Source: Beijerinckiaceae bacterium
GTDB lineage: Bacteria > Pseudomonadota > Alphaproteobacteria > Rhizobiales > Beijerinckiaceae
DNA length: 41,504 nucleotides
Direction of reading: 5' to 3'
Assembly: GCA_947455285.1 (NCBI GenBank)
Contig: CANGOK010000003.1
Span: forward strand, 1-41,504
In this document: positions 4,801 through 36,193 of the stretch, piece by piece
Numbering within the stretch: position 1 is the stretch's first letter
Layout: each line of letters opens with the position of its first letter
The notes under the pieces: generated by a model
What the model was told of the DNA's origin: nothing
Database searches by the model: none
What the model saw: only the letters and a program-made list of their open reading frames with translations
Made by a program: the position numbers and the translations under genes

Positions 4801-5835
4801 GTGCGCCACCAACAAATCCGTAACGCCATCGCCGGCTGCCTCGGGCTGCTTTCTTGCGTCGCCGCGCAGGCCGCCGACAAGGTCAATGTGGCCGTGCTGA
4901 ACGCGGCTGGCGACGTCGGCATCTTCATCGCGCAGGAACGGGGCTATTTCCGCGACGAGGGCCTCGACGTTTCGATCAACCATATAGACTCCGCCGTGAA
5001 GATGATGCCGCTGCTGGGCACCGGCGACCTCGATGTCGGCGGCGGCGCGACGACCGCGGCCCTTTACAACGCTGCAGACCGCAAGATCGACGTTCGCGTC
5101 GTCGCCTCGCGAGCTCGCACCGCGCCGGGCTTTGGCTATCAGGCGCTGGTGATCCGCAAGGATCTCGTCGAGAGCGGCAAATATAAGGGTTACAGCGATC
5201 TCAAGGGCTTGAAGTTCGCCTTCGCCTCGCCGGGCTCGACACCGCTCTCGTCGCTCAACGAGGTGCTGAAAAAGGTCAATCTCACCTTCAACGACATGTC
5301 GCTCACCTATCTGAACTTCGGCGCGCAGGTCGCCGCGCTTCAGAACGGCGCTATCGACGGCACGATCATGATCGAGCCCTATCTCAGTCAGGTGGTGGCG
5401 TCAGGCGCGGCCGTCAACGTCACGCCGACCGAGGCCTATTACCCCAGCGCAGAAGTCTCACTGCTGCTCTATGGCGACAAGTTCATCAAGGAGCGGCCGC
5501 AAGTCGCGACCAAATTCATGAAGGGCTTCCTGCGGGGCGCACGCGATCTCAAGGACGCAATCGCCGACGGCCGCTGGAAGTCGGGCCCTGTGGCGGACGA
5601 CGTGATCCGCATCTTCGCGAAGGGCGTGAACATGCCCGAAGCGACGATCCGGGCGATGACGCCGCAATTCGCTGATCCGGACGGCGACATCAATATGGAA
5701 AGCCTGCGCATCGACCTCGCCTATTTCAAGCAAAGCGGCGACGTCACCAGCAAGACCATCACCGCCGACATGATCACCGACCTGACCTTCGCCAAGGCGG
5801 CGGCGAAGGAATTGGGGCCGTATAAGGCGAAGTAA
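4801..5835 (+). CDS. ABC transporter substrate-binding protein (NMT1/SsuA/TauA-like)
   Basis: Signal peptide followed by VAVLNAAGDVGIFIAQERGYFRDEGLDVSI...; GTG start preceded by a strong SD (aggaggaaac). Confidence 0.87.
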   Translation: MRHQQIRNAIAGCLGLLSCVAAQAADKVNVAVLNAAGDVGIFIAQERGYFRDEGLDVSINHIDSAVKMMPLLGTGDLDVGGGATTAALYNAADRKIDVRVVASRARTAPGFGYQALVIRKDLVESGKYKGYSDLKGLKFAFASPGSTPLSSLNEVLKKVNLTFNDMSLTYLNFGAQVAALQNGAIDGTIMIEPYLSQVVASGAAVNVTPTEAYYPSAEVSLLLYGDKFIKERPQVATKFMKGFLRGARDLKDAIADGRWKSGPVADDVIRIFAKGVNMPEATIRAMTPQFADPDGDINMESLRIDLAYFKQSGDVTSKTITADMITDLTFAKAAAKELGPYKAK

Positions 5836-5855
5836 AAAGCGCGAAATGCCTACCA

Positions 5856-6003
5856 CTCCCCTCCCCCTTGTGGGGAGGGGTGAGGGGTGGGGGTCGTGAG
5901 GCCTATGCAGGTTCGCGTCCCTTGTCACCACGCTAACGATCAGCATGCGCAGACCCCCACCCCGTCCGCTGACGCGGCCGACCCTCCCCACAAGGGGGAG
6001 GGT
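5856..6003. repeat. Palindromic intergenic repeat element, copy 1 (~148 bp)
   Basis: Left arm CTCCCCTCCCCCTTGTGGGGAGGGG..GGGTGGGGGTC, right arm GACCCCCACCCCGTCCGCTGACGCGGCCGACCCTCCCCACAAGGGGGAGGG; same architecture as 34992-35138. Confidence 0.88.
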
Positions 6004-6027: not shown

Positions 6028-7062
6028 ATGTCCATGAAGCGCGGCGCAGCACTCCTTGTTGCGCTTATCACGACGCTCGCTAACGCCCACGCCGCCGACC
6101 ATGTGACCGTTGGCACCGTCGGCAACAGTTCGGACGCGGGGTTCTTCATCGCCATGGATCGCGGCTATTTCGCCGCCGAGGGCGTCGACGCCGTGCTGAC
6201 GCCTTTCGATGGCGCCCAGCGGATGATGGCGCCGCTTGGTCAGGGAGAACTTGACGTAGGCGGCGGGACAGCCACCGCAAGCCTTTACAACTCCGCCTCT
6301 CGCGGCATCGGCATTCGGATTGTCGCTGATCGGTCGCGGATGGAGACCGGCTATATGTTCCAGACGCTGATGGTGCGAAAGGCCGTCATCGATTCTGGAC
6401 GCTTCAAGAGCTACGCCGATCTGAAGGGGCTTAAGTTCGCGCTCGTCGCGCCTGGCGGCAGCCCCGGCTCGGCCCTCAACGAGGCGGCGCGAAAGGGTGG
6501 CGTGCCCTATGACAGCATCGACAAGGTGTTCCTGCCCTTCCCCGCGCAGGCAAGCGCCTTCGCCAACGGCGCCATCGACGCCTCGCTGATGATCGAGCCC
6601 TTTGCGACTTATCTCGTCAATCAGGGCATAGCGGTCCGCTTCGCATCGTCGGAAGATTTCTATCCGGGCAACCAGATCGGCCTCGTTTTCTTCTCGGAGA
6701 AATTCCTGAAGGAGCGTCGCGAGGTCGGCGAGCGGTTTCTGCGCGCCTATGTGCGCGCGCTACGGGACTATAATGACGCTGTGATCGAAGGACGTTTTTC
6801 AGGCGGACCGAAAGGCGAGGCGATCGTCGCGATCCTCGCCCGCAATCTCAACATGAAGGAAGACCAGATCCGGGGCAGCTATGTTCAGGCGATCAGCCCG
6901 GACGGCAAGCCCAATGTGGATAGTCTGCGCAAGGATCTTCAGTTCTTCCTCGCTCAGGGCGATGTGACTGACGCCAAGGTGGATCTCGATAAGATCCTTG
7001 AGCTTTCGCTGATCGACAAAGTGGTGAAGGACCTCGGCCCCTACCAGCCCAAGCGTGACTAG
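6028..7062 (+). CDS. ABC transporter substrate-binding protein (NMT1/SsuA-like), paralogue of the 4801-5835 protein
   Basis: MSMKRGAALLVALITTLANAHAADHVTVGTVGNSSDAGFFIAMDRGYFAAEGVD...; aligns by eye with the 4801 protein. ORF-track start at 5887 lies within the repeat, so the ATG at 6028 is preferred. Confidence 0.87.
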   Translation: MSMKRGAALLVALITTLANAHAADHVTVGTVGNSSDAGFFIAMDRGYFAAEGVDAVLTPFDGAQRMMAPLGQGELDVGGGTATASLYNSASRGIGIRIVADRSRMETGYMFQTLMVRKAVIDSGRFKSYADLKGLKFALVAPGGSPGSALNEAARKGGVPYDSIDKVFLPFPAQASAFANGAIDASLMIEPFATYLVNQGIAVRFASSEDFYPGNQIGLVFFSEKFLKERREVGERFLRAYVRALRDYNDAVIEGRFSGGPKGEAIVAILARNLNMKEDQIRGSYVQAISPDGKPNVDSLRKDLQFFLAQGDVTDAKVDLDKILELSLIDKVVKDLGPYQPKRD

Positions 7063-33198: not shown

Positions 33199-34485
33199 AT
33201 GCCAGCCAATGGCTCATACGTGATCGACGACAAGGAGAAGGGGATCTTCCTTCTCGATCGATCCGTTCACGTCTCCGAGGAAATTCTGCGCGAAGAAATG
33301 CGCAAGATTTTCGCAAAATGCTGGATTTACGTCGGCCATGCGTCCGAGGTTAAGAAGCCCGGCGACTTCGTCAGCCGCAAGGTGGCGGGCCGTCCGATCA
33401 TCTTCGTGCGCGACCAGAAGGGTCAGGTTCGCTGCCTCTTCAACACCTGCCGCCATCGCGGCTCGGTGGTCACGACCGAGCGCTGCGGCAACGCCCGCCG
33501 ATTCATGTGCGTCTATCACGGCTGGAGCTATGGCAATGACGGGTCGCTGGCCCGCGTGCCCAGCGAAGAAGCCTATACGTCTGCTTTCGACAAGGGCGAT
33601 CTGGGGCTCAGGACCCCTGCCCGCTTCGAGAGCTACAAGGATTTCTGGTTCATGAACCTCGATCCGAACGCCCAGCCGCTGGCCGAGTACCTCGGCAAGG
33701 CGACGGAATATATGGACCTCGTGGTCGACCAGTCGCCCTCAGGCCAGATGGAAGTTCTGCCCGGCACGCAGGAATATGACGTCGCAGCCAACTGGAAGCT
33801 GATGGTCGAAAACAGCGTGGACGACTACCACCTGCCCACGACCCATTCGACCTGGCTGAACTTCATGAAGAATTCCGGCGTGGTCATGGAGCCGCCGAAG
33901 GGCGCGGGCATGGTGCTGCCAACCAAGGGCCTCGCGATTGATCTTGGCAACGGCCATTTCACCACGGACAACGTGAATTTCCGCGGACGCCCCGTCGCCG
34001 CCTGGATCCCGCTCTACGGCGAGGCCGCCAAGGAAGAGATGGCGGCCATCCGCGCCGAACTCGTCGAGCGCCTCGGCGCAGACCGCGCCAAGCGCGTCGC
34101 CGACACCAACCGCAACCTCGTGATCTTCCCCAACCTCGTCATCAACGACGGATCATCGGTGACGATCCGCACCTTCTTCCCCAATGGCGTCGACAAGATG
34201 CACGTCACCGCCTGGGCGCTCGGCCCGGTCGAGGAGAGCGAATCGGCGCGCGCGCGCCGCCTCGACGCCTTCCTCACCTTCTACGGCCCCGGCGGCTTCG
34301 CCACGCCCGACGACGTCGAGGCGCTGGAGATGGTGCAGAAGGGGCTCGCCAACTGGCAGGACGACCGCTGGTCCGAAATGTCGCGCGGCATGGGCCACGA
34401 AGACGGCGAACAGCTGAACAGCGATGAATTCCACCTCCGCCTCTTCTGGCGCAAATGGAACGCCATGATGGGAGAACAGGCATGA
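33199..34485 (+). CDS. Aromatic-ring-hydroxylating (Rieske) dioxygenase, alpha subunit
   Basis: Rieske CRHRGSVVTTERCGNARRFMCVYHGWSY; mononuclear Fe site NSVDDYHLPTTH; ATG 33199 preceded by GAGGA SD (33160 ATG is the ORF-track start). Confidence 0.94.
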   Translation: MPANGSYVIDDKEKGIFLLDRSVHVSEEILREEMRKIFAKCWIYVGHASEVKKPGDFVSRKVAGRPIIFVRDQKGQVRCLFNTCRHRGSVVTTERCGNARRFMCVYHGWSYGNDGSLARVPSEEAYTSAFDKGDLGLRTPARFESYKDFWFMNLDPNAQPLAEYLGKATEYMDLVVDQSPSGQMEVLPGTQEYDVAANWKLMVENSVDDYHLPTTHSTWLNFMKNSGVVMEPPKGAGMVLPTKGLAIDLGNGHFTTDNVNFRGRPVAAWIPLYGEAAKEEMAAIRAELVERLGADRAKRVADTNRNLVIFPNLVINDGSSVTIRTFFPNGVDKMHVTAWALGPVEESESARARRLDAFLTFYGPGGFATPDDVEALEMVQKGLANWQDDRWSEMSRGMGHEDGEQLNSDEFHLRLFWRKWNAMMGEQA

Positions 34486-34967
34486 GCGCCGTGACCCGCG
34501 CCGAGGTTGAAGACTTCCTCTATCTGGAGGCCGATCTTCTCGACAACTGGAAGCTGCCCGAATGGGAAGCCCTGCTGACCGACGATGCGGGCTATTACAT
34601 CCCCGCGAATGATGATCCGCATGGCGACCATCGCAGCTCGCTCTTCATCATCGCTGACGATCGTGAGCGCATCCACCAGCGCATCATCCGCGTGATGGAT
34701 CCGAACTGCCATGCCGAATTCCCGAAGTCGCATCTATCGCGCATAGTGGGGAATGTGCGGATTCTTTCGCAGGATGGCGACACCGTTGTCGCCGCTTCGA
34801 CCTTCGTCCTCCATCGCTATCGCCGTTATGAGCGCATGGGCGAATATGTCGGCAACACCCGCCACACCCTGAAGCGCGTGGGCGACAGCTTCCGCATCAA
34901 GGAGCGCCGCGTGTTCCTTAAATCCCACGAGCTGGGCTCGTTGGGATCGGTGAGCTTCATTCTGTGA
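34482..34967 (+). CDS. Aromatic-ring-hydroxylating dioxygenase, beta subunit
   Basis: ATGA overlap with alpha gene; EVEDFLYLEADLLDNWKLPEWEALLTDDAGYYIP..., typical small-subunit SnoaL-like fold; IKERRVFLKSHELGSLGSVSFIL. Confidence 0.9.
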   Translation: MSAVTRAEVEDFLYLEADLLDNWKLPEWEALLTDDAGYYIPANDDPHGDHRSSLFIIADDRERIHQRIIRVMDPNCHAEFPKSHLSRIVGNVRILSQDGDTVVAASTFVLHRYRRYERMGEYVGNTRHTLKRVGDSFRIKERRVFLKSHELGSLGSVSFIL

Positions 34968-34991
34968 CCATTACGCACGACCCCTCCGCTG

Positions 34992-35138
34992 CTCCCCTCC
35001 CCCTTGTGGGGAGGGGCCGGGGGTGGGGGTCGCGCGATTTCTGTAGTGAGCGCGTTAGTGAAGGGCGCTCACGATCAGCGCCTCACGACCCCCACCCCGT
35101 CCGCTGACGCGGCCGACCCTCCCCGCAAGTGGGAGGGT
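34992..35138. repeat. Palindromic intergenic repeat element, copy 2 (~147 bp)
   Basis: CTCCCCTCCCCCTTGTGGGGAGGGG...GGTGGGGGTCG ... ACGATCAGCG...GACCCCCACCCCGTCCGCTGACGCGGCCGACCCTCCCCGCAAGTGGGAGGGT; same orientation as copy 1. Confidence 0.88.
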
Positions 35139-35146
35139 ATTTTTTT
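35117..35146 (+). terminator. Intrinsic-terminator-like hairpin formed by the right end of repeat copy 2
   Basis: CCCTCCC-CGCAAGT-GGGAGGG followed by TATTTTTTT. Confidence 0.7.
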
Positions 35147-35215
35147 GCGCGCCCTTTTGACAAAGCGCGTCATCTTTCTGACGATGCACCATAAACGCTG
35201 CTCACTGGAGCCCCT

Positions 35216-36193
35216 ATGGCCGATCTCGAACTCAAACTTGCCTGCTGGGATTATGACCGCACCCGGCCCCTCATCGACGGGCGTGTGAAGCCTGAGGGCA
35301 TCAAGCTCAATATCGAGGTGCTGCGGCCCCGGCAGATGTTCCCACGCATGCTGGAGCATCAGGAGTTCGACGCCAGCGAAATCTCCCTCGCCTCCCACGC
35401 AAGCCTTATCGGACGCGGCAATTCGCCATTCGTGGCGATCCCGGTCATGCTGTCGAAGATCTTCCGCCATTCCTGCTTTTATGTGCGAGCGGGCGCCGGC
35501 ATCGAAAAGCCGGAGGATCTGCGAGGCAAGCGCGTCGGCACGACCCAGTTCACCGCCACCGCAACCACATTCATGAAGGGCATGCTGCAGCATGAATATG
35601 GCGTGGCGCAGCACGAGATGCACTGGTTCATGGGCGGGCTCGACAAGCCGACCGAACATCCTCTGATCCCGCTCAACCTGCCCTCCAATGTGAAGCTCGA
35701 TTTCGTGCCAGAGGGAGATACGCTTGAGAAGATGATGGCGGAGGATCGGCTGGATGCGCTGATCTCGATCTATATCCCGCCGAGCTTCCTGAGGGGTTCG
35801 CCCCGCATCAAGCGGCTCTTCCCTGATTATAAGCAGGCCGAGAAGGACTACTTCCGCAAGACCGGGATTTTCCCGATCATGCACACGCTGGCCCTGCGCG
35901 CGGACACCTATCGGAACGATCCATGGATCGCGAAGAGCCTCTATGACGCCTTCGAGAAGGCCCGCGCGCTCGCCCTCGACGAGCTCTACGACACCGACGC
36001 CCTGCGCCTTGGCCTTCCATGGCTGCTGGAACATGTGGAGGAGCTGTGGTCGGTCTTTGGCGAGAACTGGTGGAGCTATGGCGTCGAGGCCAACCGCGCG
36101 ACCCTGACGGCTCTCGGCCAATATGTCTTCGAACAGGGCGTCTCGCCGCGCGTCGTCACGCCGGAGGATATGTATGTTCCGGAGCTTCGCTGA
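35216..36193 (+). CDS. 4,5-dihydroxyphthalate decarboxylase-like / substrate-binding-fold protein
   Basis: LKLACWDYDRTRPLIDGRVKPEGIKLNIEVLRPRQMFPRMLEHQEFDASEISLASHASLIGRG...RGKRVGTTQFTATATTFMKGMLQHEYG; no N-terminal signal peptide. Confidence 0.8.
   Translation: MADLELKLACWDYDRTRPLIDGRVKPEGIKLNIEVLRPRQMFPRMLEHQEFDASEISLASHASLIGRGNSPFVAIPVMLSKIFRHSCFYVRAGAGIEKPEDLRGKRVGTTQFTATATTFMKGMLQHEYGVAQHEMHWFMGGLDKPTEHPLIPLNLPSNVKLDFVPEGDTLEKMMAEDRLDALISIYIPPSFLRGSPRIKRLFPDYKQAEKDYFRKTGIFPIMHTLALRADTYRNDPWIAKSLYDAFEKARALALDELYDTDALRLGLPWLLEHVEELWSVFGENWWSYGVEANRATLTALGQYVFEQGVSPRVVTPEDMYVPELR

Follow-up and report, generated by a model that had tools for sequence, protein, structure and literature searches.

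What is the palindromic element of about 147 bp that occurs twice between genes in this 41,504-nucleotide stretch (the window) of a Beijerinckiaceae genome (assembly GCA_947455285.1, contig CANGOK010000003.1)? A preliminary description had noted two copies of 148 and 147 bp in equal orientation, with the positions and lengths that we also obtained, and had suggested a mobile or structural repeat family, MITE-like or REP/BIME-like. We consider it probable that this is an intergenic mosaic repeat of Hyphomicrobiales, of a REP/BIME-like (RIME-like) kind. Each copy is a composite of two units, here called S and T, and the two copies and their neighbouring genes are laid out as follows:

4801-5835, + strand: NMT1/THI5-like substrate-binding protein gene, stop codon 20 bp upstream of copy 1
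5856-6003, + strand: copy 1, complete S-T composite element, 148 bp (R1 model match 5854-6003, 169 bits, this sequence being itself in the model)
5859-5879, + strand: copy 1, S unit inner hairpin, CCCTCCCC-CTTGT-GGGGAGGG
5884-5895, + strand: copy 1, S unit outer arm, GGGGTGGGGGTC, complement of the T outer arm
5952-5963, + strand: copy 1, T unit outer arm, GACCCCCACCCC
5964-5981, + strand: copy 1, T unit tag hairpin, GTCCGCTGACGCGGCCGA
5982-6002, + strand: copy 1, T unit inner hairpin, CCCTCCCC-ACAAG-GGGGAGGG
6028-7062, + strand: NMT1-like substrate-binding protein gene, ATG 24 bp downstream of copy 1
34455-34967, + strand: ring-hydroxylating dioxygenase beta subunit gene, stop 24 bp upstream of copy 2
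34992-35138, + strand: copy 2, complete S-T composite element, 147 bp (R1 model match 34990-35138, 140 bits)
34995-35015, + strand: copy 2, S unit inner hairpin
35020-35032, + strand: copy 2, S unit outer arm
35086-35098, + strand: copy 2, T unit outer arm
35099-35116, + strand: copy 2, T unit tag hairpin
35117-35137, + strand: copy 2, T unit inner hairpin with one stem mismatch (GTGGGAGGG)
35216-36193, + strand: NMT1-like protein gene, starting 77 bp downstream of copy 2

The claimed arms were seen in both copies, as was the ACGATCAGC remnant of the core, and the segment said to give the element its polarity, GTCCGCTGACGCGGCCGA, was confined to the right side. Copy 1 contains two perfect inverted repeats, 5859-5879/5982-6002 (21 nt, 100%) and 5884-5895/5952-5963 (12 nt, 100%), and copy 2 contains one, 35020-35032/35086-35098 (13 nt, 100%). 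The reading of the terminal arms as hairpins held as well, with local hairpins in both units and predicted folds far beyond those of dinucleotide shuffles (-96.8 kcal/mol, z -6.6, for copy 1; -102.3 kcal/mol, z -7.8, for copy 2).

Had the genome held only these two copies, there would be no family to speak of, but the right-arm core gave 28 matches in the same genome at up to three mismatches (0 for the reversed pattern), and the inner hairpin CCCTCCCC-N5-GGGGAGGG occurred 82 times (2 for the reversed control), corresponding to about 40 elements. Since the assembly is incomplete (3.05 Mb, 84% complete, 326 contigs) and some of the contigs break off within the repeat or close to it, the counts of 28 and 82 are lower bounds. 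The dispersed repeat family proposed at the outset is thus real.

Its build follows a rule. The S unit consists of the inner hairpin and the outer arm, with a few bases of spacer between them (in window orientation CCCTCCCCCTTGTGGGGAGGGG-NNN-GGGGTGGGGGTC), while the T unit is the same plan inverted, with the spacer replaced by an 18-bp tag hairpin, GTCCGCTGRCGCGGCCGA; in the window S comes first and is separated from T by a core of about 57 bp. Among 95 clusters of elements from six carrier genomes, 55 of the 56 pairs with facing outer arms were S/T heterodimers, the remaining one being T/T, and the spacing of facing pairs was 51-61 bp. Additional units alternated in orientation with 27-60 bp between inner hairpins, and S-T-S-T arrays, solo T units and fused T-S units all occurred. 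Pair counts with a gap of -19 were set aside as overlapping or fused units or pattern noise.

Two structures could underlie such a palindrome, local hairpins within each unit or pairing between the left and right inner arms. When 24 copies from the window's own genome were compared, the local-hairpin model left 98.4% of the cells paired, with compensatory change, C-G to U-A, at two pairs of the S inner hairpin in eight sequences, which probably stem from one change and so represent one or two events. Left-right pairing of the inner arms, which we rejected as the conserved structure, was kept in 86.9% of the cells of the same copies with zero compensatory changes. The compensatory changes support the local hairpins over left-right pairing. 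Across lineages the T tags differed in sequence, and nearly all of them kept a hairpin: 46 distinct tags had a mean of -11.1 kcal/mol as against -5.7 kcal/mol for shuffles, 30 of them folded better than 95% of their own shuffles, and stem positions showed up to five pair types. The tag pairs were taken from the folding itself, so the shuffle test serves as their control. Little change was seen in the S unit when other genera and another family of the order were compared.

The S unit reads GGGG-A-GGGG-NNN-GGGG-T-GGGGG, and its four G runs with short loops were kept in 84 of 110 distinct S units, a pattern that could also form a G-quadruplex. We regard this as quite improbable, because the G runs are explained by hairpin pairing and an AGAG subfamily loses them while keeping the hairpin by compensating changes. 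A subfamily of the window's own genome with the left arm CTTCTCTCC...GGAGAGATTAGAGAG (L004, L006, L015, L018, L021-L023 and L025) had its inner and outer G runs altered in parallel, the outer alteration weakening the pairing with the T arm.

The family extends well beyond this genome. A covariance model matched 67 of 121 relatives (E <= 0.01, at most 25 matches being counted for each genome), the named carriers being MAGs labelled Beijerinckiaceae, Rhizobiales or Rhizobium. Matches were also found in 23 plasmid records, including those of Terrarubrum, Pannonibacter and Methylobacterium, which we take to come without exception from Hyphomicrobiales genera; no annotated gene lay beneath any plasmid match, some of these records being little annotated or unannotated. 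The 350-kb plasmid p.BB_1 of Pannonibacter phragmitetus BB carried about 29 places (57 matches, both strands), at a copy density far above that of the window's own genome. The copies (L214, L255-L261) belong to a relative of S-S type, about 180 bp long, in which those inspected showed two short spacers. On pSymB of S. meliloti the matches were weak (best E 2.8e-6). Matches in other alphaproteobacterial orders (48 of 289) were on inspection in many cases merely analogous G+C palindromes, and for this reason we do not claim a family beyond Hyphomicrobiales. No earlier description of the repeat's sequence was found in the literature covered, which lay mostly outside subscription papers.

We then asked where the copies sit relative to genes. 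The expected intergenic placement was borne out, 88 of the 95 clusters overlapping called genes by no more than 15%, as judged with a simple home-made codon-usage gene caller that marked 88% of the loci as coding. Some of the overlaps reflected over-extended called starts, copy 1 among them: the ATG at 6028, preceded by GGGAGA, is a better start than the called one overlapping the element. Among the 76 clusters for which both neighbouring genes were known, 34 lay between convergent genes, compared with 37 of 299 other gene pairs in those loci (Fisher p 2.7e-9), and 9 lay between divergent genes, compared with 50 of 299. The loci of other species had been chosen for holding the core, which biases presence at shared sites and leaves the type of gene pair unbiased. 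The median distance from stop codon to element was 22 nt, and orientation relative to co-directional genes was unbiased (19 same, 14 opposite).

The enrichment between convergent genes, the position just after stop codons and the very stable hairpins are what a bidirectional transcription terminator between convergent genes would display. Such a role seems rather unlikely, since a T-rich tail followed the T unit in only 3 of 56 full copies and an A-rich tract preceded S in none of the 56, and since copy 1 lies between two co-directional genes and a terminator scan found no terminator-like site there. The scarcity of T-rich tails also argues against similarity confined to generic C/G-tract terminators, although a Rho-assisted or U-tract-free terminator role may apply. 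The convergent and 3' bias may be pure survivorship.

Both window copies fold stably and have an NMT1-like gene downstream, which could instead point to a structured RNA or a regulatory leader of that gene. We consider this extremely improbable: the only Rfam match in the window at gathering score was a tRNA, with none at the element, the copies examined outside the window flank unrelated genes such as ruvB and a radical-SAM gene, and divergent (5'-5') gaps are not preferred.

Have these elements moved? The gap orthologous to that of copy 2 was empty in three related genomes (G008, G011 and G017), and that of copy 1 was empty in one of these (G017). Further empty sites were found among carriers, between the window's own genome (G000) and G033, between G000 and G032 on one side and G036 on the other in both directions, and between G036 and G005; many sites were common to species at 80-90% identity with a differing number of units. 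The insertion ends could not be placed exactly, because the species with empty sites are about 75-88% identical. In a further genome (G014; L162, G014:C463) the gap orthologous to window positions 34968-35215 contained a palindromic repeat unrelated to ours, CGTCCTTGCGAGGAGCGAAGCGAC..., that resembles a CGTC-tagged REP, so that two repeat families would have used one intergenic spot.

Inverted arms, dispersed copies and empty sites would all be expected of a MITE, which as a non-autonomous transposon would rely on a DDE transposase supplied in trans and recognising the inverted arms, and short direct repeats near the ends were in slight excess (6-mers, 17 vs 8.2 +/- 2.8). However, this excess may stem from repeated linker sequence, and no target-site duplication was found at a shared offset in 56 full copies, a weak test because the ends of the element are placed only approximately. 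T units that stand alone and differently arranged T-S joints do not fit a MITE either, and among the element loci examined there was no autonomous element with the repeat's ends: the only transposase found with the repeat belongs to an IS481 element that inserts into it and has ends different from those of the repeat (TGTTNAGACCGG). With no shared duplication and no partner the MITE reading fails, and we judge it improbable.

The associated RAYT that the preliminary description had thought worth seeking was likewise missing. Y1 transposases move REPs elsewhere, and the RAYT is typical of GTAG REPs and not of all REPs. The Y1/RAYT transposase domain (PF01797) was absent from all six carrier genomes (the window's own 84% complete, the others up to 99-100%). 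The search took in 61 genomes, the window's own and 60 others, and found the domain in 11.

The IS481-family element came to light in a locus of G032 (L056, 878-2147), where its gene is flanked by inverted halves of the repeat. One reading of this locus, that the repeat is the end of an IS481 transposon, was rejected because the insertion sequence has its own ends, TGTTNAGACCGGANANATGGTGGACA, and because in a repeat-independent search of the six carriers all 15 IS ends, from four genomes (L056, L263 and L265-L279), lay against the inside of inner hairpins belonging to S or T units, and thus within hairpins of different units; 13 of the 15 were at CCCAC or its complement GTGGG. A full single-site copy of 1270 bp in the window's own genome (G000:C120; L263:1081-2350), in which the duplication was testable, showed 5 bp, CCCAC. 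It encodes a 387-aa transposase that exceeds the IS481 cut-off of NCBIfam and shares 50.6% identity with that of ISRm20. We examined relatives of this IS (L281, L282, L283 and a Mesorhizobium copy). ISRm20 of S. meliloti (L282) and a relative in Sinorhizobium sp. K101 lay at the axis of another palindrome, ATCCCTGTGCTCGTCACAGGGAT, with the duplication CTCGT, a Neorhizobium relative lay between palindrome halves without a clean duplication, and the Mesorhizobium relative did not lie between palindrome halves. IS711 inserts in the Bru-RS of Brucella. REP palindromes have been described as insertion targets of other IS families (PMC1525189), and ISRm20 is absent from the accounts of insertion at REPs in the part of that source consulted. 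Compared with ISRm20 and the IS481 family, the target here is the inner hairpin of the repeat, with the 5-bp duplication CCCAC, and the landing of an IS481 element in this repeat's hairpins is new here.

To which known class does the repeat then belong? By its build, and in the way it works, we assign it with reasonable confidence to the REP/BIME class of intergenic mosaic repeats. REP/BIMEs, extragenic palindromes numbering tens to hundreds, form inverted pairs of two unit types and mosaic arrays, and are located 3' of genes. Our element resembles those of enterobacteria and pseudomonads in being a dispersed imperfect palindrome outside genes, in the inverted pairing of two unit types, in its mosaics (the S-T-S-T arrays and solo or fused units follow a logic like that of BIMEs), in lying 3' of genes and in being an IS target. 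It differs in its inner hairpin plus outer arm, in the extra tag hairpin of T, in units that are longer (about 50 bp, with two hairpins in T) than classical REPs of 20-40 bp, and in the absence of a RAYT gene from the six carriers. The structural-repeat half of the preliminary proposal, with its many intergenic copies, paired inverted units, mosaic arrays and empty orthologous sites, is therefore the one that stands.

Closer to home, CGTC-tagged REPs of Alphaproteobacteria often form dimers of unlike units and have no dedicated transposase (PMC3733652), as is the case here. Their rules require a CGTC-type tag left unpaired at one end, A/T for the first two pairs of the stem and a CCA tail, and our consensus departs from the tag, stem and CCA-tail rules alike (PMC3733652). 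RIMEs are intergenic mosaic repeats of Rhizobium and Sinorhizobium (Osteras et al. 1995, as cited in PMC2573895) and, compared by description only, share with our element the mosaic intergenic character and the order. Two repeats of pSymB (L256, L260; 1222495-1222695 and 1069871-1070093) have a like plan, inner hairpin, tag palindrome, outer arm, core and mirror image, but carry the tag, GGCCGGCAGGCC, in both arms and differ in sequence; we suspect that this GGCCGGCAGGCC-tagged repeat is a RIME. The Bru-RS of Brucella, palindromes of 103-105 bp (PMC2267715), are similar in length, order and intergenic location, again by description only.

Taken as a REP/BIME-like repeat, the element consists of S and T, related units in inverted orientation about 59 bp apart, each an inner G+C hairpin with an outer arm, T adding the tag hairpin between the two. 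Since neither a RAYT nor a flanking transposase is present, copies would have spread within each lineage by a mechanism acting in trans, and would survive mainly after stop codons and between convergent genes, where insertion harms least. There the elements would be transcribed into transcript ends as very stable hairpins, which could protect or delimit mRNA 3' ends, a function in the 3' region that we infer from position and stability, and the same hairpins double as a landing site for the IS481-family insertion sequence. More speculatively, because S is nearly fixed across the order while the tag changes in sequence yet still pairs, the T tag might be a lineage-specific address coevolving with a hairpin-reading enzyme that copies the S-T pair, and an IS481 clade (this IS, ISRm20 and the Neorhizobium relative) might be specialised for the centres of host palindromic repeats, a combined proposal that we offer with considerable doubt.

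The preliminary description had missed the rule of S/T heterodimers, the covariation of the tag hairpin, the 3'-end and convergent bias, the order-wide spread and the IS481-type insertion into hairpins. Short intergenic palindromes shape transcript ends and genome plasticity, and many of those in Alphaproteobacteria have no known mover. This family is a case easily recognised throughout an order: its two-part build is fixed, its tag covaries and its copies are clearly present or absent between species. Through it the question of what spreads repeats without a RAYT becomes testable, and an IS481 element joins the insertion sequences that land in such repeats.
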